This document shows, in pieces, positions 8,262 to 62,300 of a stretch of DNA of 64,000 nucleotides. A program made the position numbers and the translations under genes. The DNA is from a virus: positions 1 to 64,000 of IMG/VR virus record IMGVR_UViG_3300036770_005214. One strand, given 5' to 3'. Within the stretch, counting starts at the first letter, position 1. Each line of letters starts with the position of its first letter. The notes under the pieces were generated by a model. That model did no database searches, was not told where the DNA came from, and saw nothing but the letters and a program-made list of their open reading frames with translations.

Positions 8262-8269
8262 AGGCTACC

Positions 8270-9751: not shown

Positions 9752-9759
9752 GAGCTACC

Positions 9760-11121: not shown

Positions 11122-11129
11122 GGCTTACC

Positions 11130-12560: not shown

Positions 12561-12600
12561 GAGACCCCCAAGGGGGGCGCACCCCCACGGGGAGTACCTA
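12561..12600 (-). promoter_or_regulatory. Hairpin-rich leader of tail cluster
   Basis: Three overlapping GC hairpins can form here: CCCCC-AA-GGGGG (12565-12576), GGGGG-CGCA-CCCCC (12573-12586) and CCCC-AC-GGGG (12583-12592). They share bases, so forming one excludes its neighbour, a layout that could control read-through or translation of the GTG at 12560. There is no U-tract. Function is inferred. Confidence 0.35.
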
Positions 12601-12602
12601 CC

Positions 12603-13959: not shown

Positions 13960-13993
13960 GGGGTCTCCTGGTGGGCTGGTATATGCCGGGGGG

Positions 13994-14494: not shown

Positions 14495-14497
14495 GGG

Positions 14498-14848: not shown

Positions 14849-14878
14849 GGTCGTGTCTCCAGAGTGAAAGGGAAGGGA
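14846..14878 (-). repeat. Repeated translation-start leader, copy 1
   Basis: The ~30 nt upstream of the ATG at 14848 (minus strand, CCCTTCCC then TTTCACTCTGGAGACACGACC) recurs before the gene at 15321 and, slightly altered, before the gene at 16348. GGAGAC is the ribosome-binding site. This points to duplication of small gene cassettes or a shared translational control site. Confidence 0.7.
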
Positions 14879-14922
14879 AGGGAAGGGGAGCCCAGCCGAA
14901 GCCGGGCCCCACCAGGGAAGGA

Positions 14923-15321
14923 TCACCGGATCTCGGCGAGGGTCTGGAGCATGGCCTCCGCGTGGGCCTTGCGGGCCTGCACGAGGGCCGTCTTGTGGAT
15001 GGGGCGGACGGGGGGATGGCCGTCCTCGGCAGTCCAGGCGCGAGCGATCATGTCCGCGTCTTGGCGGGTCCAGAGGAGCGTCCCACACACGTCACCGCGG
15101 ACGCCCTTGAGGGCGTAGCCCTTGCGGCCGTCGCGGCCGGCTACGGAGCCGATCGCCAGGGTGCAGTCCTCCAGGGCCACGGCCCACACATGAGCGACCA
15201 GGGCCACATGGCCCAGCCGGGCGGACTCGGCCTCACGAGCGAGGTACTCCTCGGCCTCGGCGATCGTCTGGGTGTAGAGGGCGACGTACTGGTCGCGGAT
15301 AGAGGAGCGGGCGGTCATCAT
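14923..15321 (-). CDS. Hypothetical protein, helical
   Basis: 132 residues starting Met-Met at 15321. The first ATG is preferred because the preceding leader is identical to that of the 14848 gene at the same spacing. The protein is mainly helical, Ala/Arg/Glu-rich, with no cysteines in a metal-binding arrangement and no membrane span. No family is recognised. It is one of the run of short minus-strand accessory genes. Confidence 0.65.
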   Translation of the reverse strand: MMTARSSIRDQYVALYTQTIAEAEEYLAREAESARLGHVALVAHVWAVALEDCTLAIGSVAGRDGRKGYALKGVRGDVCGTLLWTRQDADMIARAWTAEDGHPPVRPIHKTALVQARKAHAEAMLQTLAEIR

Positions 15322-15352
15322 GGTCGTGTCTCCAGAGTGAAAGGGAAGGGAA
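15319..15352 (-). repeat. Repeated translation-start leader, copy 2
   Basis: Identical over about 30 nt to the leader at 14846-14878, including the GGAGAC ribosome-binding site. It is placed directly before the ATG at 15321. Confidence 0.7.
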
Positions 15353-15358
15353 GGGGGA

Positions 15359-15694
15359 TCAGGCTTGGGCGTCGATCAGCGCGTCGACCTGGGCGGGGAA
15401 GCTCGAATCGAAGGCCGCCCCGCTGTTGCGCAGGACTTGGAGCAGCGACCAGTCCGAGTAGGCAAACCCGAAGGGGCCGGCGCTACGGGGGCCCGCCGCC
15501 GCGAAGTCGTTGAAGAGGACCACCGTCCAGTGATCGAGGGCTTCCACCTTCCCGCCCTTGCGGCGGGCTCCGCGGCGGTCAGCGGCAGCGGCGTCGACCA
15601 GATAGGCCTTGGCGGCCGAGCGGTAGGCTCGGAGGACCTTGGAGGCGGCGGGGTGCTGCGCGAAGAACTTGGCAAGGGAGGTCTTGGTGGCCAT
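15359..15694 (-). CDS. Hypothetical protein
   Basis: 111 residues from ATG at 15694, with AGGAGAC upstream. The N-terminal 50 residues are basic and Ala-rich (Thr-Lys-Thr-Ser-Leu-Ala-Lys-Phe-Phe then a helix). The middle carries Asp-His-Trp-Thr-Val-Val-Leu-Phe-Asn-Asp-Phe, and the end is acidic. No family is recognised. It is the first gene after a promoter with the shared leader block (15715-15772), so its expression is probably linked to the genes at 17363, 19041 and 26343. Confidence 0.62.
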   Translation of the reverse strand: MATKTSLAKFFAQHPAASKVLRAYRSAAKAYLVDAAAADRRGARRKGGKVEALDHWTVVLFNDFAAAGPRSAGPFGFAYSDWSLLQVLRNSGAAFDSSFPAQVDALIDAQA

Positions 15695-15714
15695 GGTCGG
15701 GTCTCCTGTTTGCC

Positions 15715-15778
15715 GGGCGGGCACCGTTGCCGCCGGCACTGTCTCTGTATCCAGGGGCGGCCGTACCGTCAACCAAGA
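15715..15778 (-). promoter_or_regulatory. TTGACG promoter with shared leader, copy 1
   Basis: On the minus strand the sequence reads TTGACG (15772-15767), 17 nt, TACAGA (15749-15744). The leader ACAGTGCCGGCGGCAACGG then TGCC follows and can fold as GCCGG...CCGGC. The region upstream of -35 reads ATCTGCACCTTCTTGG, also conserved in copy 2. A second TTGACG lies further upstream (at 15813-15818), giving a possible tandem promoter with TAGCAA as its -10. Confidence 0.7.
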
Positions 15779-15917
15779 AGGTGCAGATTGCTAAAAAAGG
15801 GCCTTAGAACCGTCAATCTTTCTGATCGGTGGTTCGGGCGGTTCGCCCGCGGGAGGCCCGGCCAGAGGGCAAGGCCCCCAGAGGGGGAAGGGGCAAAGGG
15901 GGAAGGGGTAAGGGGGG

Positions 15918-16118
15918 TCAGGCCCACAAGCGCAGTAGGCGCTCGTCCTGCGCAGCCCGTACCCTTGCCCTGCGGGCCCGCTCCTCGGGATGCCTCCGCA
16001 TCTCGGCACGCAGCCGGATGATGGCTGCCTCGGCCGTCAGGGCCACGCAGGGGTCGTCCGAGAAGACGTCCCGGCGAGCGGCGTGCAGGTCCCGCTCGAT
16101 CTCCTCCAGGGCCCTCAC
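15918..16118 (-). CDS. Small helical protein
   Basis: 66 residues from GTG at 16118, which overlaps the stop of the preceding gene (GTGA). The protein is almost entirely charged helix (Arg/Glu/Ala), probably a short coiled coil. No family is recognised; translational coupling to the 77-residue product upstream suggests they act together. Confidence 0.55.
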   Translation of the reverse strand: MRALEEIERDLHAARRDVFSDDPCVALTAEAAIIRLRAEMRRHPEERARRARVRAAQDERLLRLWA

Positions 16119-16348
16119 GAGGCCACCTCGGCCATGAGGTCCATGGCGGCCCGCTGGCGCAGGTCAACGAGGTCCATCCCGGTCAGCCAGTCCGCACCCA
16201 CGCGGATCGCCTCGGCCTCGGCGTCGGCCAGCCACGCGAGCAAGCCCGGGAGGTCCAGGGTATCGAGGCCATGGGCGGAGACCAGTCCCCGGGGGGTCGA
16301 GGCTTCGCCGAGCACGGTGTTCCAGTAGGTCTCATGGGCGGTCGTCAT
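16115..16348 (-). CDS. Small hypothetical protein
   Basis: 77 residues from ATG at 16348. The start is supported by GGAGACACGACC, the third copy of the leader seen at 14848 and 15321. The protein is acidic with a Leu/Ala-rich central helix, Leu-Ala-Trp-Leu-Ala-Asp-Ala-Glu-Ala-Glu. No motif is recognised. It overlaps the following gene by 4 nt. Confidence 0.6.
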   Translation of the reverse strand: MTTAHETYWNTVLGEASTPRGLVSAHGLDTLDLPGLLAWLADAEAEAIRVGADWLTGMDLVDLRQRAAMDLMAEVAS

Positions 16349-16373
16349 GGTCGTGTCTCCAGGTGAAGGGGAA

Positions 16374-16389
16374 GGGGGGCAAGCCCCCC
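16374..16389 (-). promoter_or_regulatory. Intergenic GC hairpin
   Basis: A perfect 7-bp stem (GGGGGGC / GCCCCCC) with a 2-nt loop lies between two short minus-strand genes. It is followed by a purine- or pyrimidine-rich stretch and no U-tract. The same hairpin with the same flanks recurs at 16712-16727. It could reduce read-through or shield an mRNA end. Confidence 0.5.
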
Positions 16390-16422
16390 AGGGAAGGGCG
16401 ATTGTCGTTCGGGGCCTCGGGG

Positions 16423-16683
16423 CTACGCCCCCTGGGCGGCCATGGCCCCAGCCCAAGCGGTGAGCGCGTCGGCCGCCCCCGCGTAGTCCCGGGCCTTGAA
16501 CTTCTGGCCGGTGATCTGGGCCGCCGCCTTCATCATCGCGCTCGGGGTGTAGGCGCGGTTCACCTTCATACCGGTCCGGGCGTAGAAGCGCAGGGCCGAT
16601 GCGATGGCGCTGGCGCGGTAGATGCTGACGGCTGCGGGACCGCTGAAGGTGGTGGTCCCGCCCGGGGTGGTTTCGATCGGCAT
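16423..16683 (-). CDS. Small hypothetical protein
   Basis: 86 residues from ATG at 16683, with AAGGAGAC upstream. It begins Thr/Gly-rich, then has two amphipathic helices with Ala and Lys (Ala-Ile-Ala-Ser-Ala-Leu-Arg-Phe-Tyr-Ala and Met-Met-Lys-Ala-Ala-Ala-Gln-Ile). No family is recognised. It is flanked by identical GC hairpins on both sides, as if carried in a repeated cassette. Confidence 0.6.
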   Translation of the reverse strand: MPIETTPGGTTTFSGPAAVSIYRASAIASALRFYARTGMKVNRAYTPSAMMKAAAQITGQKFKARDYAGAADALTAWAGAMAAQGA

Positions 16684-16711
16684 GTGAGTCTCCTTGTGTT
16701 GAGTAGGTGAA

Positions 16712-16727
16712 GGGGGGCAAGCCCCCC
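16712..16727 (-). promoter_or_regulatory. Intergenic GC hairpin, second copy
   Basis: Same 7-bp GGGGGGC / GCCCCCC stem and same flank (AGGGAAGGGCG on the plus strand) as 16374-16389. It sits between the stop of the 16740-17363 gene and the start of the 16683 gene. An imperfect third copy is at 17386-17401. Confidence 0.5.
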
Positions 16728-16739
16728 AGGGAAGGGCGG

Positions 16740-17363
16740 TCAGGCGATCTCGGCGCCGAAGACCGTACAGGGGGCATGGGCGCCGTTCTGGGAGCGATAC
16801 CAGTCGGGGGGGCTCAGGGGGAGCACGAGCAGCCCGGTGTACCCGTGGACGAGCACCCGGCGGAGCACCAAGGCAGGGCCGATCCGGTTGATCGTCACGG
16901 TGACGTCCTCGCCCGCAGCGGGGATCGCACCGGAGCCCGACCACTGGCCCCCTTGCCAGCCTTCCTGGTCAGGCTGGACGGCTACGCCCAGGTAGGCGTA
17001 GCCGCCGCTCACCCGGGCATGGGCCTGCACGCCCATTCCAGAGAGGGCGAAGTCGCGATCTCCGGTCTTCTCGTGGTGGGCCTCTAGCTGGCTGACGTAG
17101 GCCGCGGTCAGCCCGGAGAGTGCCTCACGAGCAGCGGGGCTCAGGTGCCCGGGGGTGCGGCTACCGCAGCGATCCCCCAGGAGGGCGAAGCGGTAGCCCG
17201 AGATCGTCACGGGGCGGCGGTTGGCCACCTTGGGGCGCCCCGTGGGGGTCAGCACCGGACGGCTGACCGACTCCACGATGGCGCGGGCCCCGAAGGCGAT
17301 GGGGGACTCCGGGATGATATCGAGGCCGAAGGTGAAGGAAGGGGCAGGGGAGAGGGTAGACAT
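16740..17363 (-). CDS. Hypothetical protein
   Basis: 207 residues from ATG at 17363. Alternating strands with a Gly/Pro-rich composition suggest a mostly beta protein. One helix (about residues 75-95) precedes His-His-Glu-Lys-Thr-Gly-Asp-Arg. There is no signal peptide or membrane span. I recognise no family. It is the first gene after promoter copy 2 of the shared-leader class, so its transcript probably continues through the small genes down to 15918. Confidence 0.6.
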   Translation of the reverse strand: MSTLSPAPSFTFGLDIIPESPIAFGARAIVESVSRPVLTPTGRPKVANRRPVTISGYRFALLGDRCGSRTPGHLSPAAREALSGLTAAYVSQLEAHHEKTGDRDFALSGMGVQAHARVSGGYAYLGVAVQPDQEGWQGGQWSGSGAIPAAGEDVTVTINRIGPALVLRRVLVHGYTGLLVLPLSPPDWYRSQNGAHAPCTVFGAEIA

Positions 17364-45584: not shown

Positions 45585-45920
45585 ATGGAAGCCACGACCC
45601 GCACCCCGGAGGCCTCTCCGCCTGTCGGCGTTCGTATGTCAGCCCGTGACCGGTCGACAATCTTGGAAGCGGCAAAGCACTCCTTCCAGCCCGTGTCGGA
45701 TTGGGCGGTGGATGCGATCGACTATGTGCTGCGCAACGGCTTCCCGAGCATCGCCGAGCGCCCAGACGAGAAGAACCTGACGGACCGGGTGGCGGTGCGC
45801 CTGCCCGACGAGTTGGAGACGCGTATCGAGTCTGCTCGCGGGCCGGCGACTGCACGGTCTTGGATCCGCATGGCGCTTGTGCTCCGGGCCCACCAAATCC
45901 TGCAAGCCCGCGTCGCCTGA
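45585..45920 (+). CDS. Double ribbon-helix-helix-like protein
   Basis: 111 residues from ATG at 45585, with GGAGGAA upstream. Two successive segments look like ribbon-helix-helix units. The first is Val-Arg-Met-Ser-Ala-Arg-Asp-Arg followed by a helix and Ser-Asp-Trp-Ala-Val-Asp-Ala (about 16-50). The second is Val-Ala-Val-Arg-Leu-Pro-Asp-Glu-Leu followed by Ala-Arg-Ser-Trp-Ile-Arg-Met-Ala-Leu (about 68-105). A single-chain, dimer-like DNA-binding repressor or partition-type protein is plausible. It could be a regulator of the promoter family described here (inference). Confidence 0.6.
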   Translation: MEATTRTPEASPPVGVRMSARDRSTILEAAKHSFQPVSDWAVDAIDYVLRNGFPSIAERPDEKNLTDRVAVRLPDELETRIESARGPATARSWIRMALVLRAHQILQARVA

Positions 45921-45925
45921 TAGAC

Positions 45926-45941
45926 AGGGGTCCCCACCCCT
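45926..45941 (+). promoter_or_regulatory. Short intergenic hairpin
   Basis: AGGGGT-CCCC-ACCCCT forms a 6-bp stem 5 nt after the stop of the RHH gene and 38 nt before the GP88-like gene. There is no U-tract, so a weak terminator or processing site. Confidence 0.4.
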
Positions 45942-45978
45942 GATACCCCTTCCGGGAGACTTACGGGAAGGTGCCTCC

Positions 45979-48549
45979 ATGGCCCGACAAGGGACGCTCA
46001 CTCCGGCGGAGATCGCGCCTGCGATCCGCTACATGAAAGACCTCGGCGTGTCGGAGGTGGCGCGGAGTCGGCGGGGGTTCCTGCACCGCTTCATGGCGAT
46101 GGATGGAGACTGGGAGTCGCTTGGCACCGACCGGCACTCGGGCCAGGACTGGCAGGACCGGCAGCGGAACTTTGTGGCGCGTCACTGGACGCAGATCCGC
46201 GAACGCAAAGAGCCCCTGTGGACGACGCACAAGGGCGAGCGCATCCCGACGCGCCATCATCTCGCCTTGATCGCCTGGGCCTGGACGCCGGACATTGAGG
46301 CGTACCGCAAGTGGCTGAAGGGCTTGGAGGCGCAACCGAGCAAGGCGGAGCGCCTGATGGCTCCCGGCTACCGCTCGTGGGCCTGGACGCAACAAGACTG
46401 GCGCTCGGTCGTGAAGGGTCCGGGGGGCCGGCTCGACTGGTCGCGGCAGTGTGGCGCAGAGGGGACGCGGGACGCCTCGGGCAAGCCCGCCCTGTGCCTG
46501 CCGGTCGCGGTCATCGAAGAGTTGGTGAGCGAGGGCGAGTCGGGCCGGCGCATCCTCCGCCAGCAGGTCGAGAAGAAGGCCGCCGCCAAGAAGGGGCAAC
46601 GCGTCCCCTGGCATCCCCGCATCGCCGAACTGTGGAACCGCGTCGAGGCCGACACGGAGCCCGACCGGCTGGCCGCCAAGAAGCAGCCCGGCCTCCGGGT
46701 GCAGTCGCTCCTCTTCGACCGCGACGTGTTCACCAAGACGGACGCTCGCAAGTGGGTCAAGAGCCACGGGTTTGTGGACCTCGGCGTGGACGAGAAGCCG
46801 AACACATGGCGCTTTCGCCAGCATGAGCCCACCGAACACGAACGAGACAGCTTCCGCACCATCTACTTCCGCCCTGGAGTGCAAGCCGTGGTCGCTCGAC
46901 CTGATGTGGAACGGATGCAGACCTACCGCGACGTGGAAGGGATGACGGAGGAGTCGTCCCCGTACTGGGAGATGGGCTACGCGGCCCAGATGCCGACGGC
47001 AGAGCAGTCCGACTACATGGAAGCGCACCCAGCACTGTGGGATGCCTACATGGAGGGGCTGTCTGCCGGTCCGCAGATCTCGGTCATGCCCGAGCGCCCC
47101 ATCGGCTCCTACCCAGACGAGGACCGCATCATCACCGTGTTCGTCGAGCAGGATGCCGACGGCCGGTGGAGCGTCGTCGAGCAAGGCAACAAGGGCACCT
47201 CGCGCCTTCCGGTCCCGGTGCTGTGGGGCTACCAGAGCGAAGAAGAAGCCACCCGCGGGGGCCGTGACCACCTCGCCCAGATGGGCCAGCCCACCGAAGA
47301 GCGGTGCATGTGCGGGCGGACGCTCCACACCCCCCTGGCGCCTGTCGAGCGGCTAGACCGGGTGCGGCGCTCGCAGGTCGCCAAGCGGCGCGAGCAAGCC
47401 CAGGTGTTCTTCCTGATGGAGCCCAGCGCCCACACCCAATGGCTCGCGGGGCGTTCGGGCCTCTCGCCCGATGCGGTGCGGGAGTACGACGCCGCCCTCG
47501 TCCGCAGCGCCAAGACGGCGCAGACCTACACGGTCGGGATGCTCCAGGCCATGTTCACCGGCGGGGCGCTCCGCGTGACCCGGAGCGGGACCTCCCTCGT
47601 GCTGGACGGCAAGGTGCTGATGGCGCACGAGCAGGCTCGCGACGCGTTGGTGAGCCCCTTCGGTGCGCGGCCCAGCATCTTCACGCAGACCACCAAGATG
47701 AGTTGCCCTTCCTTCTCGCTCCCCGCAGGGCCCCCCAGCATCGGCGGCACCTGTGCGCTCGCGAACCACGCCCCCAACGGTCCGGGCGCTGAGGAGCTAC
47801 GAATCTGCTCCAACTGCTACGCGCTCAAGGGGAACTACATGCAGGCCGAAGTGATGGTCGGCCAACTGTTCCGCTTGGCGTGGGTCCACCGGCTCGTCAA
47901 GGGCGATCCCTCGGGGGCGATGTTCGCTCGCGAGATGACCACCGCCATGAACCTGCTCGCGGACCAGGGACCGTCCGAATCGAGCCTGCGGGCCCGTCCC
48001 AATCTGGAGTACGGCGTCATCCGTGCGGGCAAGCTCACCTACAACGCCGGGCGCAGTGCTCGCGTGCTGCCGGCCCATCCGCTCCTCTCCGGTGCGTCGA
48101 GCCAGGAAGGCTTCGACGAGCTTCCCGATGGGACCGTGGCGGGCTACTTCCGCGGGCACGACTCCGGGGACTTCTCGGTGCTCACGGGCGATGACTCGCT
48201 CGGCTACGTCCGAGGCTGGCAGCAGGTCATCGCGGCCTTCCCGCATGTCCACTTCTGGTTTCCAACGCGGCTGTGGAGGATGAAGGGGGGAGCGACGCGG
48301 AACGCGCTCGACAACTTGGCGACCGAGCCGAACCTCGCCCTTCGCCCGAGCGCCCTGTACGTCAACGACCCGCCGCCCATACAGAACGGGTGGGCGGTTG
48401 GCACCACGGCGAACACGCCGAACGCGGACGTCCCCGAGGAGGTTTGGCGTTGCCCGGTGCAAGACGAGGACAAGTCGTCGTGCGCCTCGACTCGGTGTAG
48501 GACGTGCTGGCTGCGCAAGTCGGTCGGCGTGACCTACGGAAAGCACTAG
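45979..48549 (+). CDS. GP88-family protein with long N-terminal extension
   Basis: 856 residues from ATG at 45979 (GGGAAGG upstream; a longer frame from 45877 overlaps the previous gene and is rejected). The last ~330 residues match the phage gene-product-88 family. They contain Cys-Ser-Asn-Cys-Tyr-Ala-Leu-Lys-Gly-Asn-Tyr, His-Asp-Ser-Gly-Asp-Phe, Trp-Phe-Pro-Thr-Arg, and the closing Cys-Pro-Val...Cys-Ala-Ser-Thr-Arg-Cys-Arg-Thr-Cys-Trp-Leu-Arg-Lys cluster, probably a metal or Fe-S site. GP88 proteins have no known activity and are usually much shorter. The N-terminal ~500 residues are unknown, with basic helical segments. The conserved cysteines argue for an enzyme. Confidence 0.75.
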   Translation: MARQGTLTPAEIAPAIRYMKDLGVSEVARSRRGFLHRFMAMDGDWESLGTDRHSGQDWQDRQRNFVARHWTQIRERKEPLWTTHKGERIPTRHHLALIAWAWTPDIEAYRKWLKGLEAQPSKAERLMAPGYRSWAWTQQDWRSVVKGPGGRLDWSRQCGAEGTRDASGKPALCLPVAVIEELVSEGESGRRILRQQVEKKAAAKKGQRVPWHPRIAELWNRVEADTEPDRLAAKKQPGLRVQSLLFDRDVFTKTDARKWVKSHGFVDLGVDEKPNTWRFRQHEPTEHERDSFRTIYFRPGVQAVVARPDVERMQTYRDVEGMTEESSPYWEMGYAAQMPTAEQSDYMEAHPALWDAYMEGLSAGPQISVMPERPIGSYPDEDRIITVFVEQDADGRWSVVEQGNKGTSRLPVPVLWGYQSEEEATRGGRDHLAQMGQPTEERCMCGRTLHTPLAPVERLDRVRRSQVAKRREQAQVFFLMEPSAHTQWLAGRSGLSPDAVREYDAALVRSAKTAQTYTVGMLQAMFTGGALRVTRSGTSLVLDGKVLMAHEQARDALVSPFGARPSIFTQTTKMSCPSFSLPAGPPSIGGTCALANHAPNGPGAEELRICSNCYALKGNYMQAEVMVGQLFRLAWVHRLVKGDPSGAMFAREMTTAMNLLADQGPSESSLRARPNLEYGVIRAGKLTYNAGRSARVLPAHPLLSGASSQEGFDELPDGTVAGYFRGHDSGDFSVLTGDDSLGYVRGWQQVIAAFPHVHFWFPTRLWRMKGGATRNALDNLATEPNLALRPSALYVNDPPPIQNGWAVGTTANTPNADVPEEVWRCPVQDEDKSSCASTRCRTCWLRKSVGVTYGKH

Positions 48550-51803: not shown

Positions 51804-54800
51804 ATGAGCTACGCGGACGCACAACGCCGGAAGCACGCCTACCTGTCGTGGATGCTCCGCACAGGTCCCACCCAAGACCCCAAGCGGATGCCGAATCCGA
51901 AGTCCCTCTCTGCACCCTCCAGTCTCATCTGGACTGTCTTGAAGCGGGATGGGAAGTACCTCCCCTATGTGTCCAATGGGCATGTGCTCTTTCCCGGGAT
52001 CTACGACAAGGTGAAGGACGGTGCAAGTAAGCACTTGCACTACCCGAACGAGCAAGACCTCTACCGCCAACTGCACGAGATGGGTGAGGCGCGAAAACTG
52101 CCAGAATGGGCAGGGGAAGACTGGCACTACGTCTCTTCGGGAACAGTGGAGAGCTTGATCCGCGCCGCCGGGGAGGACGCAAACGTCCTTTCCAACCCGA
52201 ACATGGAAGCCCTGTTTCCGGTCCGACTTCGGGACACCGCGAACGGCAAGGAGATGGAGTTCGTTTGGCCGGTCGAGGTCTACGGAAGCCGGCCGGTGTC
52301 TGCTCTTCTGCGCCCCTACGCCGAGATGGTCACCCCCGTTCTGGGGAAGGTCACCAAAGCCTACCTCCCGCGCGGGGGCAGGTCCCCCTTCCGCTTCGAG
52401 AACGATGATGGCGAGGTGTTCCTTGTCATGCCCGCCAACCTTCCCATGACAGAAGAGGAGAGGGAAGCCAAGCGGCAAGTAGAGGAAGAAGAGAACCGCA
52501 AGCGCATGGAGCGTGCTGCCGAGGAGAAGCGGCAAGAAAAGGAGAGGAAGCGGCAGGAAGAGGAGAAGAAGGCCAAGCTCGAAGACACGGACGGCTACGC
52601 GGACCAGTTCGGCAAGCTACGCCGTGGGACCATCGTGAAGTCCCTGCTGGGAAAGATCCGAACCAACACCTTCGGGATCCTCTCTCTCCGAGATCTCATC
52701 CGCAAGCTGGTCAAGGAAGGCTACAGGGTCAAGGTCATCTCGGGAGATCGGGTCATCTCCAACGGTGAGGGTTTCTGGTGGGAGAAGGACCTGGGCAAGA
52801 TTTCCCTCGACTACGCCGAATGGTTGATCGAGAAAGGATACGGTCCTGCGCAGTCCGAACCCGAGCCCACCCCGAGCGACCTCCCTTCGCTGTCTCCCGA
52901 AGAAGAGGCACACTTGTTTGGCGAGGCCCCTGTTGAACCCGCACCAGCGGTCCCGCTCCCGGTGCAGTCGATCTCCCCGGTGACAAAGCACGTCAACGGC
53001 TTTCTCGCCTTCCTGGCGGCGCAGGGCATCTCCTACCCCTATGCGGCGTCCCTGTTGGCGGCGTCCAGTTGGTACAGCACGCACCGCGACCATCACCACC
53101 TTCCGATCGGCCCTTTCGATCCGCTCCCGCCCTTCAACCCCGAGATTGCCGAGCACCGCAAGCTGTCCCAGAAAGGGGTGGAGTATCAGATCGGGAAGTC
53201 CCCGATGTTGTTCCAGGGCTTCGACGGTCAACGCAAGGTCGCGCTCCTCCGAGAGCTAGGCGACCTCGCGCAAGTGGTCGCCTACGGAATCAACCTAAAG
53301 GTCCCTCTGACCGGCGCCTGCCTCGTCGTGGGGCTTGTGCCTCTCCTAGAGGACCGTTGGGCTGCGGCCGGCTATTCGGAGGGCGACGTCGAGTTGTCCG
53401 AGGCCGCCGTCCGCGAGTACCCCTGGCTCTGGAAGCACCTCAAGAAGCGCCTCACCACAGCACCCGTCACCGAGCCCAGCGTGGGCCCGATCGATATGCC
53501 CGATATGCCGGCGGGCACCACGGCCCCCGAAGAGCCCATGGGGCAACTCTACGAACCCGAGCCCTACTACACGGACACGCCCGAGCCCGAACCGGAGCCC
53601 GAACCGGAGCCCGAGCCGGAACCGGAGCCCGAGCCGGAGCCCGGGCCTCCCCGCATCTCCAATGAAGCAGTGTACCACGCCGGAGTTAAGCCGCTGACTC
53701 CGACCCAGCAGCCGGGTGTAGCACTTGCGTCGGACGGAAGCGTCGTCACGCTCACAAACGAGTACGTCAGGCAGCAGCGGGCGACCATGCAGCCGCCTCC
53801 TGGGGAAGCGAACGTACTGAAGCAGCACATCCGCTACAATCCTCCTTACGATGACCCGCAGGTCATCGACAACGCCAGGGTGACGGGCAAAGCCCAGGTC
53901 TCTGACCACGCCACGATCTCCGGGAACGCCCAAGTGTGGGACATCGCGAGCGTGCGAGGTCGGGCGACGGTGACCGACAACGCCAAGGTCTTTGGGGGCG
54001 CCAAGGTGTTCGGCAAAGCCACCATCTCTGGCAACGCTGTCGTCACCGACAGCGCCGAGGTCTGGGACAACGCCGTCGTGACCGAGGATGCCCACATCAT
54101 CGGCAACGCCAAGGTGTTCGGGGACGCGCATATCAGTGGAAAGGCCACGCTGGTCGGCGGTCGGGTGACCGGTAACGCTCGGATCGGCGGGGATGCGCAA
54201 ATCCTCGGGGGCCTTTGGGATGGCTCGGAAGGGGAGATCACCACGGGGATGTGGCACTCGCCGCCCAAGCCCGCCTCTGATGCGCCTCGCAGCGTCGCCC
54301 AACAAGCGGTGGAAGACCTGATCGAAGGCGTCCGCCGAATCGTCGGCGACTACCAGACGACCGGTAAAAGGGAGATTGGGCGGTTCAACAATGAGCTAGT
54401 CCGCCTCGAATGGCGGCGTCTCCGCCCGGGGCAGAAGGCGCGTAGCTACGATCCGCCTGTACCCTATGTCACCTTTGTTATCGGCTGTGACTCCAAGCCG
54501 ATGACGCGGAATGGGGCGTTTCCGAGTTGGAAGCAAGGGGAGGAGCCGGTTGGCAAGCTCTCGGTCGGCGCCAGTGCTCCTTCCGGCTCGTGGGGTCTTC
54601 TGGGGCCGCCCTCACAGATGTCGCCTTACGTCACCCCGGACGGCGGGATGGCGGGACTAAAGCAAGCGATCGACCACATCTTCAAGTGGTTTGAGAGGAA
54701 CAAGAAGGCACTCATCGGTGACTCGCCTCTGCCTGCCCCTTCGGCCCCCGCCGACCCCAACCGCAGCGTTGCTCGGCAGGCGGCTGACGACCTGATCGAA

Positions 54801-55664
54801 GGCATCCGGGGGACCGTCGGCGACTACCGGCTGACCGCAAAGCCGGTGACGTTGATCGGAAGCGAATCCATCCTGCTCGACTGGTATCGCCTGCGCCCAG
54901 GGGAGATCCCTGCGCAGAACATCGTCGAGAACGCGCCTGGGTTCCGCATCCGTGTCTCCCTCGCCGACGACGGCATGTGGAGCCCGGGTCAGGCGCCGAA
55001 GGGGAAGATCAAGGTCCAGATGGTCGCCGTTCACGGCTCGCGAGAGGGCTGGGGGCCCAACGGCACGCCCAACATGCGGGCCTACACCACCACCCGCGTT
55101 GGCGTCGAGGGTCTGGAGCAAGCGGTCGCTTACATCCTCAAGTGGTTCCACGGCAACACGAAAGTCCTCGTCGAGGGGCCGCCCGGAGGCTACGCGCCGA
55201 AGCCGAAGCCGACGGAAGGGGCGCCTCCCGTGGTGCGCGAGGTCCAGCGGGTGCGATACTCGACCGGCGGGCCGAAGGTCTACATCGTCGAGAACCCCGC
55301 CCTTGGGATGGAAGACTCCCTCGACTTCGCCACGATCGGCGAGGCGGAGGAGTTTCTGTCCCGCGCGCACAAGGGCGACAAGAACGTGCGGGTGTACGTC
55401 CGCCTGACGTGGCCGGACGGCGCCAACTATGCCGACGAGGTGGAGTGGCCCCGCCAGCAGATCTCCCCCGCCCTCCGCGGCCATCTGGAGCGCAACCTGA
55501 AGGACGACCCGCGCACCGCAGCGGCACGTCAGATGAAGGCTGCCGCACGCCGGATGACCGTGGAAGAACTGGACGCCGAAGCCCGTGGTTTCTTGGACCG
55601 CGATTGGGGGGTGTCCACGGAGTCCATGCGGGCGTATCGTCGGCAGTGGAAGGGGGGAAGGTGA
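51804..55664 (+). CDS. Giant modular protein with beta-solenoid
   Basis: 1286 residues from ATG at 51804. The order is an unknown N-terminal domain (1-210), a Glu/Lys/Arg coiled coil (about 212-260), a further domain, then a Pro-Glu repeat linker (about 592-613, Glu-Pro dipeptides). Next is a left-handed solenoid-like region (about 686-805) with repeated Asn-Ala-x-Val and Gly-Asn-Ala steps. Last come two copies of a ~135-residue domain (about 828-968 and 986-1122, both starting Arg-Ser-Val-Ala-Xaa-Gln-Ala with Asp-Leu-Ile-Glu-Gly and ending Phe-Lys/Leu-Lys-Trp-Phe) and an acidic C-terminal part. No signal peptide or membrane span. It might be a scaffold, a surface protein or an injected protein. 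Confidence 0.72.
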   Translation: MSYADAQRRKHAYLSWMLRTGPTQDPKRMPNPKSLSAPSSLIWTVLKRDGKYLPYVSNGHVLFPGIYDKVKDGASKHLHYPNEQDLYRQLHEMGEARKLPEWAGEDWHYVSSGTVESLIRAAGEDANVLSNPNMEALFPVRLRDTANGKEMEFVWPVEVYGSRPVSALLRPYAEMVTPVLGKVTKAYLPRGGRSPFRFENDDGEVFLVMPANLPMTEEEREAKRQVEEEENRKRMERAAEEKRQEKERKRQEEEKKAKLEDTDGYADQFGKLRRGTIVKSLLGKIRTNTFGILSLRDLIRKLVKEGYRVKVISGDRVISNGEGFWWEKDLGKISLDYAEWLIEKGYGPAQSEPEPTPSDLPSLSPEEEAHLFGEAPVEPAPAVPLPVQSISPVTKHVNGFLAFLAAQGISYPYAASLLAASSWYSTHRDHHHLPIGPFDPLPPFNPEIAEHRKLSQKGVEYQIGKSPMLFQGFDGQRKVALLRELGDLAQVVAYGINLKVPLTGACLVVGLVPLLEDRWAAAGYSEGDVELSEAAVREYPWLWKHLKKRLTTAPVTEPSVGPIDMPDMPAGTTAPEEPMGQLYEPEPYYTDTPEPEPEPEPEPEPEPEPEPEPGPPRISNEAVYHAGVKPLTPTQQPGVALASDGSVVTLTNEYVRQQRATMQPPPGEANVLKQHIRYNPPYDDPQVIDNARVTGKAQVSDHATISGNAQVWDIASVRGRATVTDNAKVFGGAKVFGKATISGNAVVTDSAEVWDNAVVTEDAHIIGNAKVFGDAHISGKATLVGGRVTGNARIGGDAQILGGLWDGSEGEITTGMWHSPPKPASDAPRSVAQQAVEDLIEGVRRIVGDYQTTGKREIGRFNNELVRLEWRRLRPGQKARSYDPPVPYVTFVIGCDSKPMTRNGAFPSWKQGEEPVGKLSVGASAPSGSWGLLGPPSQMSPYVTPDGGMAGLKQAIDHIFKWFERNKKALIGDSPLPAPSAPADPNRSVARQAADDLIEGIRGTVGDYRLTAKPVTLIGSESILLDWYRLRPGEIPAQNIVENAPGFRIRVSLADDGMWSPGQAPKGKIKVQMVAVHGSREGWGPNGTPNMRAYTTTRVGVEGLEQAVAYILKWFHGNTKVLVEGPPGGYAPKPKPTEGAPPVVREVQRVRYSTGGPKVYIVENPALGMEDSLDFATIGEAEEFLSRAHKGDKNVRVYVRLTWPDGANYADEVEWPRQQISPALRGHLERNLKDDPRTAAARQMKAAARRMTVEELDAEARGFLDRDWGVSTESMRAYRRQWKGGR
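53580..53643 (+). repeat. In-frame Glu-Pro codon repeat
   Basis: A run of alternating GAG/GAA and CCC/CCG codons encodes ten to eleven Glu-Pro pairs, a rigid spacer in the solenoid protein. The synonymous codons vary, so it is selected at protein level and is not a young simple repeat. Confidence 0.7.
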
Positions 55665-56083
55665 CAGCAGGTGAGTGCTATCAAATCGATCTCGGGAGGC
55701 AACGGATTGACTCGAAAGGCTGGGGGGTGAGCCTTTCGATGCAGCCGGGTACGACGCTGGAGGGCGTGTACCTCATCGTCTCCAAGAGCAAGGGCAAGAC
55801 CCGAGCGATGATCAAGGCGGACGGGCGTGTCCAGGTCTGCCGGACCTACACGCTGGAAGCGCAGAACCAGCACGCCATCCCCCGGTTCGATGGCAAGCCG
55901 TCGAGCATCTACCAGTACGGCCTCGACTGCACAGACGAGAGCGGCCGGCACATCTTCCGGGGGTCGACGCTCGCCATCGCCCTGGAGCAGCCCGACGGGC
56001 CGCCTGCGGAGGCGCTGGTGCTCGTGCGATGGCTCGGGCGTCCAGGTGCGGTCCGCGTTCTTTGCATGAGCGACGAGAACTAG
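55661..56083 (+). CDS. Hypothetical protein
   Basis: 140 residues from GTG at 55661 (GTGA overlap with the solenoid gene). It is compact with Tyr-Gln-Ile-Asp-Leu-Gly, Gly-Val-Tyr-Leu-Ile-Val-Ser-Lys and Arg-Gly-Ser-Thr-Leu-Ala-Ile-Ala-Leu-Glu, mostly beta. No family is recognised. Its TAG shares the sequence CTAG with the stop of the convergent gene at 56080, so the two genes overlap by four bases. Confidence 0.62.
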   Translation: MTAGECYQIDLGRQRIDSKGWGVSLSMQPGTTLEGVYLIVSKSKGKTRAMIKADGRVQVCRTYTLEAQNQHAIPRFDGKPSSIYQYGLDCTDESGRHIFRGSTLAIALEQPDGPPAEALVLVRWLGRPGAVRVLCMSDEN

Positions 56084-58800
56084 CGGACCCGGACGAAATC
56101 CAGACCTCCAAGTCCTTTATTCCCTTCGATGATGGCGCGGGCTTCCCGCATCGTCCGGGCAGCATCGGGCTGGATGGGCTCGGGCATCGGGCGGGTGCTC
56201 GCGAGCATGACCTCGATAGCCACCTGGGGGTTGGTGCGGAGCATCTGCACCATCTGGCCCCAGCCTGTCTCGGTGACGCCCGCGGGCCAGTTTGCCGGGC
56301 CCAGCTTGGCGAGCCAATCCGCGAACCGCTGTGCGGCCTCGTGCTGGTCAAGGCGTTGCAGGAGGGTGTGAATGGCCCCCTCGTCCCGCTTGAACCAGTC
56401 GCGGTAGTGGAGCACATCGCGATTCAGCTTCTCGACCTTCGCCCGGTACTCCTCAAGCTCCTTCCGGGTCTGGGCCAACTCCGCCGCCGTCTTGGTGTCG
56501 ACGGTCGACTTCGGCGCCTTCAGCTTGTAGACCTTGCTCACCATCTTGATGATCAGGGGCAGGGCCGGCGCCGCGTTGAAGCCCAGGTCCTCGCGGGCGC
56601 GGGAGAAGTCGTCGTTATGGCCCCTGCCGAGTCGAGGGACGTGTGCGATCTCGTGGGCGGCGATGTTGAACAGGTACGACGCCCAGAGGTCCGGCCGGTT
56701 CGGGTAGAGCTTCTGGTAGTCGTCGAACATGAGGGGGTTCACGCAGACATACGTCCGCATCCCCTTGTCCGTCTTGACCGCGAGCGCCATCCCCCGCGTT
56801 CCATCCTCCAGCACGAACCCGGGCTGGAAGTTCTGTGGCATACGAGCGCCATGGGTCAGCAGGCGCAGCGTCGAGTCCCAGCACGCGAGCAGCGGGACGT
56901 ACCGCTTGATGTTCTTCTTGAACGCCTTGACCTTCTCGGGAGCCATCTTCCGGGAGATTCGGATGAACGCTCGATTGCCGAACGGGTTGATCTTGTCGCG
57001 GGCCTTCTTGACCTCGGCCTGCCCGGCGGGCTCGGTGACGCGAACCACCGCATCGGCGAGCGCGCTCACCGCGGCGGCCTGGGTCATCCCCGTGGGTCCG
57101 CCCCCCAAGCCCCCTTGCACGAGAGCGGTGTCAATGTCTTTGATGAGGCCCAGGATGACCTTCGTATCGCCGGCGGTCGGCGTGTCCCCGTGCGAGAGGT
57201 TGCTCAGGATGGTCTGCACCTCGGTCGGGGGCGCGGCGGTCCCGGTGGCGTCGAGCAACGCGTTCAACACCCGTGCAATATCGGCGGGGTCCGTGGTGGT
57301 GCTGGCGATCTCCGTCGCCTTGTCAAACACCGTCTCGGGCTTCGGAGGCGGCTCCGCGCCCTCCTCTTCGGGTGCATACTGCGCCGGGTCGTTGGTGTAG
57401 CGGGCCATATCGGCCATCACCTCGCGCATATCCGGGGAGAGGCCGCTCACCGCCTCTTGGATCGCATCGTCCACGGCCGCCGCGCCCTTGCGCTCGGACT
57501 CGTCTGCGGCGTCGGGCAGAATGTCCTCCCACTCCGCCTTCTCTTTCTTCTCCTTGGCGAGCGCCTGCTTCTGCCCCTCTTCGCTGGCGAGGGTCGAGCG
57601 GACGGTGCTGTAGCTCTCCATCGCGTTCGGATCGACGAACGAGTCTCGCGAGACGCGAAGGGGGTAGCCGGGGCTGTCGGGAGCCACGCCACGGGCCAGC
57701 GCAATATCGAAGAAGATGTCGCGATTGAGGGTGTTGTAGTCCTTGTCCGCGTGCTGGACGAGGTAGCAGGTTCCCCAAGGGGTCGTCTTGCGAAGGCGCA
57801 AGATCATGCGGTTGAAGTTGCTGGCGTACCCTTCCCGCTTGGCATCGAACATGCGAATGTCGACCGTCGCCGAAGGCGGGTCCGTCGCCGACCAGGACAG
57901 CGACTCCCACTCCGAGGTCGACGACGAACGCTGGCCTTCGTACAGAAACTCGACGGGGGCGCCGTTCAACGTGATGCTGACCCCCGGGATCTTGTTCAAC
58001 GCAAGCATCCCCCGGATGCGCTCATCGACCCAACTGGAAGTAAGGGTGTAGGGGGTCGACAGGTATGTGTTGGGGACGCCGTAAGCCACCACCTCGACGC
58101 CTTGGATGAAGGTGTCCGAGGTGAAGACGTCATACTGCTGCTTCGGGTTGGTGCTCGGGGACCGGATCTCCACATACCCCGTGCGGACACGCCAGCCCTC
58201 TTTGCCCGCGCCAAGGATGACGGCCTTGGCGGCGCCGAAGCCCCCAAACGCATCCCCTTCCTTCTGCGACCCGCCAAGGGTCAGGAACTTGCGGAGGCGC
58301 GGCGTAAGGGGCGCTGCCTTCGAGGGGCGGAAGGAGCGGTCGGCCATGCCGATCCCGTTGTCCGTCATCGTCAGCGTGCCCTTTTCGTAGCTATCGTCCG
58401 GCTCCCACTTGACCGCGAAGCTGGGCGAGAACCCAGACTCGGGCTCTTTCCGATGCCGCTCGGCGAGCCCGTCCAGGCTGTTCTGGAGGGCTTCGCGGAC
58501 CGCGAGCACGGGGAGGTCGCCGCCGGCGTAGAACTTCTCGGTCAGCAGCGCCCACATGCGGGGCGCGTCCACTTCGAGCACGCCGCCGCCCACGGCCTCC
58601 ATGCGGTCGATCGCGGCCATCGCCCCCCGGTGGTGGCTTCCGCACGAGCAGCCGCCCCGAGCGTAGCTGCGAAGCGCCTGCGCGATCGGAGCGTGCATCC
58701 CGAGACGCCCCGCGGCGACGGGCCCATCTCCCACAGACAAGCGGTCCACGGTCCGAGCGGGGAGGGCAAAGTCGAACGTGAACTGACGGGTCGCAGACAT
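56080..58800 (-). CDS. GHKL ATPase-metallopeptidase fusion
   Basis: 906 residues from ATG at 58800, preferred over GTG at 58809 because GAGGTGG lies six nt upstream. The N-terminal third is a GHKL ATPase: Arg-Glu-Ala-Leu-Gln-Asn-Ser-Leu-Asp (N-box, near 102-110), Thr-Asp-Asn-Gly-Ile-Gly-Met (G1, near 146-152) and Gly-Gly-Phe-Gly-Ala-Ala-Lys (G2, near 186-192). This arrangement is that of Hsp90/MutL/MORC-type proteins. An Ala/Glu/Pro linker (about 400-500) and a helical section follow. Then comes His-Glu-Ile-Ala-His with Gly-His-Asn-Asp-Asp-Phe about 6 residues on (near 716-733), a zinc-peptidase site. A coiled coil and helical tail end the protein. I know no described protein with this architecture. 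Confidence 0.78.
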   Translation of the reverse strand: MSATRQFTFDFALPARTVDRLSVGDGPVAAGRLGMHAPIAQALRSYARGGCSCGSHHRGAMAAIDRMEAVGGGVLEVDAPRMWALLTEKFYAGGDLPVLAVREALQNSLDGLAERHRKEPESGFSPSFAVKWEPDDSYEKGTLTMTDNGIGMADRSFRPSKAAPLTPRLRKFLTLGGSQKEGDAFGGFGAAKAVILGAGKEGWRVRTGYVEIRSPSTNPKQQYDVFTSDTFIQGVEVVAYGVPNTYLSTPYTLTSSWVDERIRGMLALNKIPGVSITLNGAPVEFLYEGQRSSSTSEWESLSWSATDPPSATVDIRMFDAKREGYASNFNRMILRLRKTTPWGTCYLVQHADKDYNTLNRDIFFDIALARGVAPDSPGYPLRVSRDSFVDPNAMESYSTVRSTLASEEGQKQALAKEKKEKAEWEDILPDAADESERKGAAAVDDAIQEAVSGLSPDMREVMADMARYTNDPAQYAPEEEGAEPPPKPETVFDKATEIASTTTDPADIARVLNALLDATGTAAPPTEVQTILSNLSHGDTPTAGDTKVILGLIKDIDTALVQGGLGGGPTGMTQAAAVSALADAVVRVTEPAGQAEVKKARDKINPFGNRAFIRISRKMAPEKVKAFKKNIKRYVPLLACWDSTLRLLTHGARMPQNFQPGFVLEDGTRGMALAVKTDKGMRTYVCVNPLMFDDYQKLYPNRPDLWASYLFNIAAHEIAHVPRLGRGHNDDFSRAREDLGFNAAPALPLIIKMVSKVYKLKAPKSTVDTKTAAELAQTRKELEEYRAKVEKLNRDVLHYRDWFKRDEGAIHTLLQRLDQHEAAQRFADWLAKLGPANWPAGVTETGWGQMVQMLRTNPQVAIEVMLASTRPMPEPIQPDAARTMREARAIIEGNKGLGGLDFVRVR

Positions 58801-58818
58801 CGCTTCCACCTCGGCACA

Positions 58819-58847
58819 GGTCTACCCCATGCGACCCTTCCGATCCA
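58819..58847 (-). promoter_or_regulatory. Degenerate promoter before GHKL gene
   Basis: On the minus strand the sequence reads TGGATC, 17 nt ending CATGGGG, TAGACC. Only part of the family's spacer repeat is kept. It could provide extra transcription of the GHKL gene inside the operon. Confidence 0.3.
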
Positions 58848-58853
58848 GCCTTC

Positions 58854-59300
58854 CTATCGGCGGAGGCGAGGCCGCATCGCGGGGAACACCTTGGGAGGCA
58901 CGATGACCTCGCGCACGCCGAGGCCCGGATCGCGGTGCTGGTCGGTCGTCTCGACGCGGCTACGCCATGCGGAGAGGCGCTGGTCCTCTTCGATGACGCG
59001 CAGCCACGAGTAGTTTCGATTGTCGAGAAGGAGCCCCAGGACCTCCGACTGCTCGGTCTCTGGCACGTCGTAGTACCGGAAGAGGTAGTACAAGGTGTGC
59101 TGGCTCGGCGTGCGGGCGCCGCCCTCGTAGGACTTGATCGTGATGGTGGCGACGCCCATCGCCCGCGCGGCCTTGACCTGCCGGACCCCTTTGCGGGCCC
59201 GCCACTCGCGCAGTAGCTCCGCGAGACGCAGATAGCGCACGTTCTGTTGTTCGATCTCCGCTAACGCTTCCGCGACCACCGGATCGAGCGCCGTCTCCAT
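58854..59300 (-). CDS. XRE-family helix-turn-helix regulator
   Basis: 148 residues from ATG at 59300, with GGAGGAAGG upstream. Residues about 22-72 are a Cro/CI-type HTH: Leu-Arg-Leu-Ala-Glu-Leu-Leu-Arg, Arg-Gln-Val-Lys-Ala-Ala-Arg-Ala-Met-Gly-Val, Thr-Ile-Thr-Ile-Lys-Ser-Tyr-Glu-Gly-Gly-Ala-Arg-Thr-Pro. A helical C-terminal part with no peptidase motif follows, then a basic tail. It probably represses or activates its own operon (UvrD-like, XRE, GHKL), a layout often seen in accessory and defence modules. It lies 8 nt downstream of the UvrD-like gene. Confidence 0.78.
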   Translation of the reverse strand: METALDPVVAEALAEIEQQNVRYLRLAELLREWRARKGVRQVKAARAMGVATITIKSYEGGARTPSQHTLYYLFRYYDVPETEQSEVLGLLLDNRNYSWLRVIEEDQRLSAWRSRVETTDQHRDPGLGVREVIVPPKVFPAMRPRLRR

Positions 59301-59308
59301 CCTTCCTC

Positions 59309-62300
59309 CTACGCAGGCAACGCTGGCCCAACCTTTTCCTGCACCCACTCGACAGTGGTCCCGAGAGTCGACTCCGAGACGACCGAGAACCAGCCCGAGG
59401 ACGTCAGCGCCGCGAGGTTGAAGCCCGAGTAGACCGTCGTCCGAGAGCCCCCTTCGGTCAGCGCCGAGGCGTGCAGGTAGTCTCCCAACGAGTAGATCTT
59501 CAACTCGCTGCCAAACTTGGTGGTCTTGATGGTCGGAGGCACACCGTAGGGGTGCGCCATATCGAGCGTCAGGTTTCCGGGCGCCCCCTTGAACGTCAGT
59601 GCTTTCCCGAGCCCAGCCCCCCACAAGAGCAGGTCGCGCACGCCGATGCCGGGCGTGTCCAGGAAGTCGAGCACGAGGTCATCGGTCTGCTGTGCCGCGA
59701 AGGCCGTCAGGTCCATCGCCGGGAGCATGGAGAGGCTGTTCGTCCCGGGCGGGATCTCAAGCGTCATCATGGGGTGCAGAACGCCCGCGAAGCCGTCGCC
59801 GGCAGACACGGTGTAGATCTCCAACGCCGAGCCCGTGTCGTAGGTCAGCGTCGACCCTTCGAGCATGTAGTAGGACCGAACCTTCTCGCCGCTCCGGGGC
59901 TCCAGGGACAGCGTGAAGTTGCCGACGTAGGTCCCGCCCGGCGAGATGATGTGCAGGAGGTAGTTGAAGGCCCCCGTAGCGGAGTCTTCGATCCCGCGGC
60001 GCTTGGGTAGCTCCACCCGCACCAGCTTGCGGATGCGGCGAACCCGAGCGACCGGCGTCGGCACTTCCCCGAACGCGATCGGCGTACCGAGGTTGTTCAG
60101 CGGGACGGATTGAGCGGTCAAGATCTCCGCGGCGGTCTCGCCCACCTGCTCCAGGGGCCGATCGAGCATCGGGCGCTCTTCGGGCTGGTCCAGGTTGATG
60201 GCGCTCCCGGGGCGCTCGCGCTGCTCGGGCACCAGCGTCCCGTACACCGAACGGGCGTCGAGAAGGGCCAGCGAGTCGTCGGCGAACAGAGAGCCGTACC
60301 GGACATTGACCTGTTCGCGGGGGATGACCTCGACCGTGTACTCGTTGAAGGGGGCCCGAAGCTCCATGTACCCGTGGAACACCATCTGTGGCGACCGGAC
60401 CAGATAGCCGATCGTGCGGTCCCCGAAGCGGATGCGCAGCGTGTCTCCCGAGACGTCGGGGAACAGGTCGCCGAGACGGCGCCAGCCGAGCCGTTCGGTG
60501 GACAGGTCGTCGGCGATGATGGCGCTGACGAGTTGCCGGTATGCGGGGTGGACCTGGACGCGAAGGGCGACCTCGGGCGCGTTCTGGTTCAGCCACAGGA
60601 TGAAGGTGTCCACCCGATCGGCCATCGGCCGGGGCGCCTCTTCGTGGGGCACCAAGTAGGCCTCGATGGCCTCCTCGGAGGTGGGCCAGGAGGAGACGAT
60701 CAGCCCATCGACTGTGATGGCGTAGCGGCGCCCCTCCTTGAAGATCTCATACCCTGACGGGCCTTCGATGACCTCGATCTCCCGCAGGCGGGCGGCACGC
60801 TGGGCCTCCTCACGCTGCCGCAGTTGGAGGGCGGTGATCTTTCGGATGGCCCGCGTGGCGAGACCCGACGCCCCCTCCTTCCCGCAAACCATATACACGA
60901 CGTTCTCGGCACGGGTCACCGCGACGTAGAAGAGCCGGACCTGTTCCTCACGCTCGGAACGTGTGCTCTTCTTCCGAGGCCACTCGCGGTCCGCGAGCAC
61001 AAACACCGTCGGCCACTCAAGCCCCTTGCTGGAGTGCGCCGTCGTCAGCGACACAGCGTCCTTGGGCTTCTCTTCCTGGCTGTCATCCGGGTTTTTATTC
61101 TTCCCCTCTCGCCCACCCTTGATGTACTCCATGAAGCTCTTGAAGTCTTGGAACTGCTCCGCCAAGTCTTTCATGGTGGTGTAGATCTCGACGGCGGAAG
61201 AGTTGCTGCCTCCGCCTTCCTCGCTCGTCTCCTCTTCCCCTTCCTCTTCCTCCCCATCTCCCATGGGGAGTTCTTCCCACTCCCTTAGGAGATTCATGGC
61301 GATTATCGGTGCGTCCTCCCACTTTGCATCACACAACTCCTCCAACTCGTCCGCTACCGTGAGAAAGTCGTCGAAGGCGGCATCGCGCTTGCTGGTCACG
61401 AGCTTGTGAAGGCCGCCACGCAGCATGGGGACAATACCGGACTCTCCGCCCCTCCACCTGTCGCGAAATACTTTGTTCACGGACCCGCTGGGCAGGTACT
61501 TGAACCGTCCTCCAAAGAACTTGCTCTCGTCGTTCTTGAGGATCCCCATGAGGGCTTCTTTCGCGGCTTCCGGGTCTTCGATGCTCTTCGCTGCGAGGGC
61601 CAGGAGCATGAAGTACCGGGTGGCGGCTTTCCCCTCCAGCACCCCTTGCGTCTCCCGTGCATACATCGCCTTCAGGCCGCGACGGGTCAGCGCCCGCTCC
61701 ACGAGCGCCAACGGTGCGTTGGTTCGGCTCACCACCGCAAAGTCGGTCAAGGGGCGGCCGTTGCGGACCACCTCATCGTAGATCTTCTCTGCGATAAACT
61801 TGGAAATGCCTATATCGGAAGCAGACGGCTTGAACTTGCGCCGGCCCGCAAGGCTTTCCTTCTCCGCTTCCTTCTCCACGCGCTCCAGGGCGGCCTTCTC
61901 CACCTCCTCTCGCTGCGCTTCGCTCAACGGGAGACCCTTCGAGTCGACCATCGTCAGGGTCACTTGCCCCTGGAACTTCTCGCCGAGCGTGCCACCGTAG
62001 CTGACCTCGTTCGGGCCGGTGATGCGCATGGAGACCGCGGGGGTTCCGCTGGCCCACTCATACCGCTCCGTCTTTACCTTGACACCTTCGTCATTGGCGA
62101 CGTAAGTCTCGTAAGTCGCGGTGATATTCCCCGCCTCGACGATCCAGTGCCCGGAGCGGTAGTTAGACGAGATCTCATACTTCTGCGTCTCGGGGCGCTG
62201 GGTGATCAACTCAAACATGCTGGGGTCGGCGCCGCGGAAGCTGTAGACGGCCTGTCGGGAGTCGCCGATCAGCAGGCAAGTCCCCTCGCTCATGCGGGCG

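Follow-up and report, generated by a model that had tools for sequence, protein, structure and literature searches.

In the known ATP-dependent proteases, the proteolytic part is coupled to an AAA+ motor. Zincin metallopeptidase domains are common in phage polyvalent proteins, and the survey of those proteins makes no mention of GHKL or HATPase domains (PMC5512222). Here we describe a gene in a 64,000-nucleotide stretch of viral DNA (positions 1 to 64,000 of the IMG/VR record IMGVR_UViG_3300036770_005214; hereafter, the window) that joins a GHKL ATPase to a zinc metallopeptidase in one polypeptide. The source record comprises 108,122 bases and has PHROGs matches to a DNA polymerase, helicases and a DNA methyltransferase, so that a phage is its natural reading. 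A sequence-only reading of the window had proposed a 906-residue protein in which three GHKL-type ATP-binding boxes precede an HExxH...GH site, and this was confirmed: the gene (56080..58809, minus strand) encodes 909 residues from a GTG start at 58809, or 906 from an alternative in-frame ATG at 58800, and the HExxH lies 530 residues beyond the third box. What that reading missed is that the module is widespread in phages, that its GHKL half is of the RIIA/Hsp90 type and that its protease half is of the WLM/SprT type, and its interpretation as a whole is partly supported.

Co-occurrence of the GHKL ATPase and the zincin

Single-sequence searches with the window protein against phages, viral and genome contigs, Pfam and PHROGs gave essentially no matches, and by itself the protein matched no Pfam HATPase or peptidase model and no PHROGs family. 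Little can be recognised from the single sequence; its domains were established from a family profile, structure prediction and Foldseek, and with these the earlier domain assignment holds. A scan of viral contigs for a DNA pattern of the zinc motif led to a virus contig of 178 kb that encodes a full-length homologue (E value 1.7e-82, 34% identity) and also gave L006, a phage protein that exceeds 1300 residues and has both domains in unchanged order. A second full-length homologue was found in a 105-kb contig. In the two full-length homologues (33% and 30% identity) all ATPase and zincin motif residues of the window protein are invariant. A pattern scan of genome contigs for the zinc motif returned three unrelated small zincins.

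Viral contigs were also scanned for ATP box 3 in the form GGFG(hydrophobic)AKA, which returned 78 stretches. Open reading frames (ORFs) were counted when boxes 1 and 2 were also present and the downstream region was complete, and an HExxH was sought between +250 and +600. The motif was found in all 27 GGFGxAKA-type GHKL ORFs, at +345 to +516 from the GGFG, as compared with none of 48 RIIA-type GHKL ORFs (GGFGxGxKxP), collected as a control by a like pattern scan, and with 1.4% of shuffled sequences. Thus, the pairing of this GHKL type with a zincin is beyond chance. The invariance of the GGFGxAKA box itself is partly by construction, since the same pattern had gathered the family, whereas the HExxH result is free of this bias; the box is also independently present in L006, L021 and L023, which were obtained by other routes.

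Distances between members in the ATPase half co-vary with those in the protease half (r = 0.76, with none of 5000 permutations as high), and HHalign comparisons among six subgroups matched the zincin regions to one another (67-99.8%), which shows that these regions are homologous rather than convergent HExxH sites. Because the distances are correlated and the zincin regions match across subgroups, we conclude that the ATPase and zincin are inherited as a unit. Just three pairs of members lie under 0.35 in the GHKL distance used, so the members represent about 28 independent and divergent lineages of uncultured phages.

The family has both stand-alone and polyvalent forms. Stand-alone modules range from 490 to 1023 residues (L044, 490; L078, 732; L070, 814; L075, 812 or more; the window protein, 909; L021, 1023), and no cargo domain was recognised in these members, down to the 490-residue one, while the protease residues are still kept. 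Many other modules sit within proteins of 1300-3500 residues that carry SLT, LPD38, ART or NUDIX domains. L080, for example, adds a transglycosylase (SLT, 1.8e-22) and LPD38 (2.4e-22), L084 has a sub-threshold ART-PolyVal match and L089 has a NUDIX domain; these three combine several effector domains in one large chain, as polyvalent proteins do, in contrast to the stand-alone window protein with its two recognisable catalytic domains. In L075 the module is a separate gene beside an LPD38 gene, and in L083 a lysozyme domain is found in the neighbouring gene. Such contexts would fit delivery of the module with the phage DNA. Many proteins of the L023 phage, encoded by several ORFs in its 1457-16865 region, have RRNP/RRNx motifs close to the N- or the C-terminus, perhaps as a common packaging or processing signal.

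Outside uncultured phages, the searches returned GHKL proteins of other kinds. Searches of 50,697 phage records with five members (L006, L070, L084, L097 and L103) gave only RIIA-type proteins or nothing. A cellular origin was considered and rejected: matches in 597 bacterial genomes (Bacteroidota and Bacillota) were to HtpG-like and other GHKL proteins only and stopped before the protease region, and no HExxH was present in the seven GHKL frames read among them. Although the module is widespread in uncultured phages, its pair of domains was not found with these queries in the phage records or in the sampled bacterial genomes, so that it would have escaped notice. Two annotated proteins were also set aside. 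Halovirus HSTV-2 gene 93 (L248, 8037-10835), annotated as 'chaperone protein HTPG domain', encodes a 932-residue GHKL protein without an HExxH and represents another phage GHKL lineage. Plasmid matches were weak, and the single one read as a protein (L001, 3577-7346, in Pseudomonas aeruginosa plasmid pPUV-9) also lacks an HExxH. That gene, annotated as an 'ATP-binding protein', has a one-base overlap with the stop of a metallophosphoesterase gene, with which it possibly forms a two-gene defence operon, and it lies a few genes away from an 'ABC-three component system' gene.

Domain architecture of the window protein

From its N-terminus the protein consists of a GHKL ATPase, a middle domain, a helical linker, a zincin and C-terminal helices, all encoded, like the gene, on the minus strand. 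An antisense ORF (56029-59013, 994 residues) is longer than the GHKL-zincin ORF; the G+C content at third codon positions is 0.87 for the gene strand (56080-58809) and 0.65 for the antisense ORF. The Hsp90/RIIA-type ATP-binding domain (residues 80-246, 58072..58572) was assigned from the family profile, the AlphaFold2 model and Foldseek, and its three boxes stand in Bergerat order. E106, Q109, N110 and D113 of box 1, EALQNSLD (residues 106-113, 58471..58494), are present in 30 of 30 aligned modules, as are D150, G152 and G154 of box 2, DNGIGM (residues 150-155, 58345..58362), and, partly by construction, box 3, here GGFGAAKA (residues 189-196, 58222..58245). The GHKL family profile matched Hsp90 N-domains (GRP94, E value 3.3e-13), and the window protein itself reached the NCBIfam HSP90 family at 2.5e-4, under the cut-off. 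The closest phage relatives of this half are RIIA proteins (T4 rIIA, 1.5e-9; N4-like RIIA, 4e-6), which are also the best PHROGs match.

The structure prediction suggested by the sequence-only reading bore out both folds at moderate confidence. The AlphaFold2 model of the window protein (mean predicted local distance difference test score (pLDDT) 63.8, predicted template modelling score (pTM) 0.43) matched Hsp90/TRAP1 in the PDB with a Foldseek value of 5.9e-9, and that of the minimal 490-residue member (mean pLDDT 63.8, pTM 0.58) did so at 1.8e-10. In the window protein most blocks of the ATP-binding domain and zincin core have a pLDDT of 74-92, whereas the ATP-lid region (residues 160-200) has 46-61 and the linkers are uncertain as well.

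The middle, transducer-like domain (residues 261-395, 57625..58029) is beta-rich in the model and is covered by Foldseek alignments to N+M constructs of Hsp90 and TRAP1. Within it, the segment YPLRVSRD (residues 382-389, 57643..57666) aligns with LPLNVSRE of Hsp90, and the pattern YP....R (Y382-R388) is kept in 31 of 31 modules. HMMER placed the family sequence YPftanReel against LPLNVSRETL of GRP94 as a sub-threshold second domain. The LPLNVSRE region of Hsp90 holds its catalytic middle-domain arginine (Arg380 in yeast Hsp82). By this alignment, the family has an Hsp90-type middle domain with an invariant arginine at the catalytic position, for which a catalytic role is predicted. The helical linker that follows (residues 396-620, 56950..57624), as judged from the model and the spacing between box 3 and the HExxH, exceeds that of compact members.

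The WLM/SprT-like zincin domain (residues 621-762, 56524..56949) was assigned from a match of the family profile to Wss1 structures, from Pfam WLM matches of family members and from the model, in which it forms a helix, three strands, the HExxH helix and a further helix. Its zinc site, HEIAHVPRLGRGHNDDF (residues 719-735, 56605..56655), reads H719-EIAH-x7-H731-x3-F735. In the module alignment, H719, E720 and H723 are present in 30 of 30 modules and F735 in 27 of 30, while the column of the presumed third zinc ligand, H731, holds His in 24, Glu in 5 and Tyr in 1, a His/Glu swap of the sort expected of a metal ligand. Glu replaces the third-ligand His in the same register in the subgroup of L049, L056, L064, L065 and L097 (HExxH-x5-E-x3-F), where the motif takes forms such as HEFNHNxxRxEGxxFTW. 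The zincin profile matched solved structures of Wss1 (5xbn, E value 0.0037; 5jig, 0.0078) and, weakly, Spartan, and the model of the minimal member matched viral SprT-like folds, with BFVD entry A0A516L4L2 as the top viral fold. Among 18 family members, Pfam matches were to WLM in nine (best 9.8e-5), to YgjP-like in five and to SprT-like in one; no single family protein reached the curated WLM cut-off where that cut-off was shown. The C-terminal helical region (residues 763-909, 56083..56523), seen in the homologue alignment and the model, is partly conserved only in L021. From the profile, Foldseek, PHROGs and Pfam matches of the two halves, it is nearly certain that the protein is an Hsp90/RIIA-type ATPase joined to a WLM/SprT-type metallopeptidase, the proteolytic activity being predicted.

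The gene at 51804-55664 (plus strand) and that at 53-9226 (minus strand) of L022 each adjoin the GHKL-zincin gene of their own phage, in differing orientation, and encode large multidomain proteins with common repeated domains (26-40% identity). The window product (1286 residues) contains a YdcK-like beta-solenoid repeat region at about residues 690-800 and a long (EP)n stretch. Elsewhere in the window, four neighbouring large proteins (3560-11121, minus strand) have alike N-termini, such as ALRSPxxxHxYWGxFxNxAALPVxNPNLETGDTAFV, and are probably paralogous tail or fibre proteins, and an 890-residue protein (45877-48549, plus strand) carries a C-terminal GP88 domain (Pfam PF17338, 5e-10).

Proposed activity and its alternatives

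Across the family both catalytic sites are conserved, their order is fixed and the two halves are inherited jointly. The invariance of the ATPase and zincin residues (30 of 30) and of the YP....R pattern is what two active sites would lead one to expect. One explanation, which on balance we favour, is that the module is a phage two-domain enzyme in which the GHKL ATPase gates the attached metallopeptidase and which cuts other proteins. ATP binding would close an Hsp90-like dimeric clamp, with Arg388 of the middle domain completing the ATP site, and closure would bring a protein substrate into the zinc site or expose it there. Control of the protease by an ATP-driven clamp had already been suggested from the sequence; the Hsp90-type middle domain, the invariant arginine and the co-varying halves strengthen that suggestion, and the gating step itself stays an inference. 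The middle-domain arginine, and the fact that one GHKL subtype is strictly paired with the zincin, argue that the ATPase cycle is important for proteolysis, and because stand-alone members lack recognised cargo, cleavage of other proteins is preferred to autoprocessing. The substrate may most plausibly be a host protein encountered in the early phase of infection, possibly a DNA-bound one, with polyvalent forms perhaps delivered together with the phage DNA and stand-alone forms made in the cell. In a more ambitious version, an Hsp90-type clamp rather than an AAA+ ring would capture clients and hand them to the attached Wss1-like protease, and many phages would use this chaperone, converted to destruction, on host proteins as infection begins. 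Such a module would define a new class of ATP-dependent protease; this version is possible but distinctly more tentative.

Several points weigh against an ATP-gated protease that cuts other proteins. Neither PADLOC nor the gene neighbourhood indicates a particular target, and the targets named by the sequence-only reading (host defence or repair proteins, or a phage repressor) are candidates only. The moderate confidence of the models leaves the packing of the domains and dimerisation unestablished, the 225-residue linker could let the two halves work independently, and between some subgroups the homology of the middle domain found by HHalign is weak. On the other side, the gene lies near SF1/SF2 (superfamily 1 and 2) helicase genes, as do those of L023 and L078. 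This fits a DNA-related role, though weakly, phage replication regions being rich in helicases.

Of the alternatives, the one that survives best is an autoprotease, in which the zincin would cut the chain it belongs to, be it a separate protein or a polyvalent one, during packaging or after injection and release the ATPase as the effector. Autoprocessing has been proposed for the zincin domains of polyvalent proteins (PMC5512222), many family members are embedded in just such long proteins, and in L075 the module and LPD38 are separate genes, as if the parts needed separation. However, L044, L078, L070 and the window protein have kept their protease residues with no recognised cargo to release, and strict pairing with one type of ATPase (27 of 27 as compared with 0 of 48) is unexpected of a general processing domain. 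We consider autoproteolysis unlikely, though a serious rival.

The GHKL clamps of MutL, TopoVIB and MORC bind DNA, and the protease half has its closest matches in Wss1 and Spartan. The clamp and a neighbouring helicase might thus bring the protease to DNA-stuck proteins, clearing the phage genome for replication or stripping host proteins off incoming DNA. The helicase genes near the three stand-alone members agree with this, but helicases are plentiful in such regions anyway, the GHKL half is closer to Hsp90 and RIIA than to DNA clamps in both profile and fold searches, and no DNA-binding motif was identified; we consider a Wss1/SPRTN-like function slightly less likely than autoproteolysis, though it too is a serious rival.

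It is also conceivable, if quite improbable, that the protein serves in exclusion resistance or lysis inhibition, resembling T4 rIIA (protection from RexAB), with the zincin as an accessory. The homology of the GHKL half to RIIA speaks for such a role. Against it, no HExxH occurs in the five RIIA proteins inspected, nor in any of the 48 RIIA-type ORFs, and whereas RIIB follows RIIA in all five phage loci inspected with an annotated pair, PHROGs matched no RIIB in the large neighbours of the window gene (51804-55664 and 58854-59624), the abutting opposite-strand ORF at 54977-56083 not having been scanned. Finally, the near absence of single-sequence matches might point to a coincidence of two inactive or chance domains, with a random HExxH in a GHKL protein, but this is refuted by the invariance of the motifs in 30 of 30 modules over about 28 lineages, by the 27 of 27 ORFs as compared with 1.4% by chance, and by the match of the zincin profile to Wss1, and we give it practically no credence.

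Comparison with described systems

The relationship to phage RIIA (T4 rIIA, N4-like rIIA; PHROGs 2979 and 612) lies in a homologous, phage-encoded GHKL domain that occupies or lies close to the N-terminal end, with a further region behind it, and the two groups differ in box 3, which is GGFGLG(S/C)K in RIIA and GGFGxAKA in the family. RIIA-like GHKL proteins, a classic unsolved phage family, thereby gain relatives with a concrete, assayable activity, albeit a predicted one, and the 490-residue L044 makes the module directly testable. The N domain has its top match, by profile and by fold, in Hsp90 (HtpG, TRAP1, GRP94), and the middle domain has the (S)RE arginine motif in common with it. Sequence profile matches cover the N domain and the sub-threshold middle-domain motif only, and Foldseek alignments to full-length Hsp90 run further but at a root-mean-square deviation above 20 Å, where they are not interpretable. 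In contrast to Hsp90, no C-terminal dimerisation domain was recognised in the family, and a protease follows the middle region instead.

The WLM/SprT proteases (Wss1, SPRTN, YgjP-like) have the zinc site HExxH-x5(-7)-H-x3-F in common with the family, and among solved structures Wss1 is the top match. The similarity is confined to about 30 residues and in Pfam stays below threshold for single members, and the spacing is seven residues in the window protein as compared with five in a typical member. What sets the family apart from these proteases is its GHKL ATPase, which they lack. The AAA+ ATP-dependent proteases (FtsH, a zinc protease, as well as ClpXP and Lon) are comparable only in how they work, in that an ATPase is linked to a protease, and their ATPase fold is unrelated to that of the GHKL-zincin family. 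GHKL clamps open and close, and we know of none that threads a polypeptide. If the prediction is right, ATP would be coupled to proteolysis in a different manner, through a conserved Hsp90-type clamp in the same polypeptide as the protease.

That no characterised protein has this order of domains, as the sequence-only reading had stated, holds within the family libraries and literature searched: no model of the pair exists in Pfam, PHROGs, NCBIfam or PADLOC, and the fusion is not described in the open-licence papers searched. PADLOC gave weak GHKL-level matches only, so no defence system is assigned. Several members lie within proteins resembling the described polyvalent proteins (PMC5512222), with SLT, LPD38, ART-PolyVal or NUDIX domains. 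Both domains and the polyvalent setting are already known, and it is the conserved GHKL-zincin tandem that is new.

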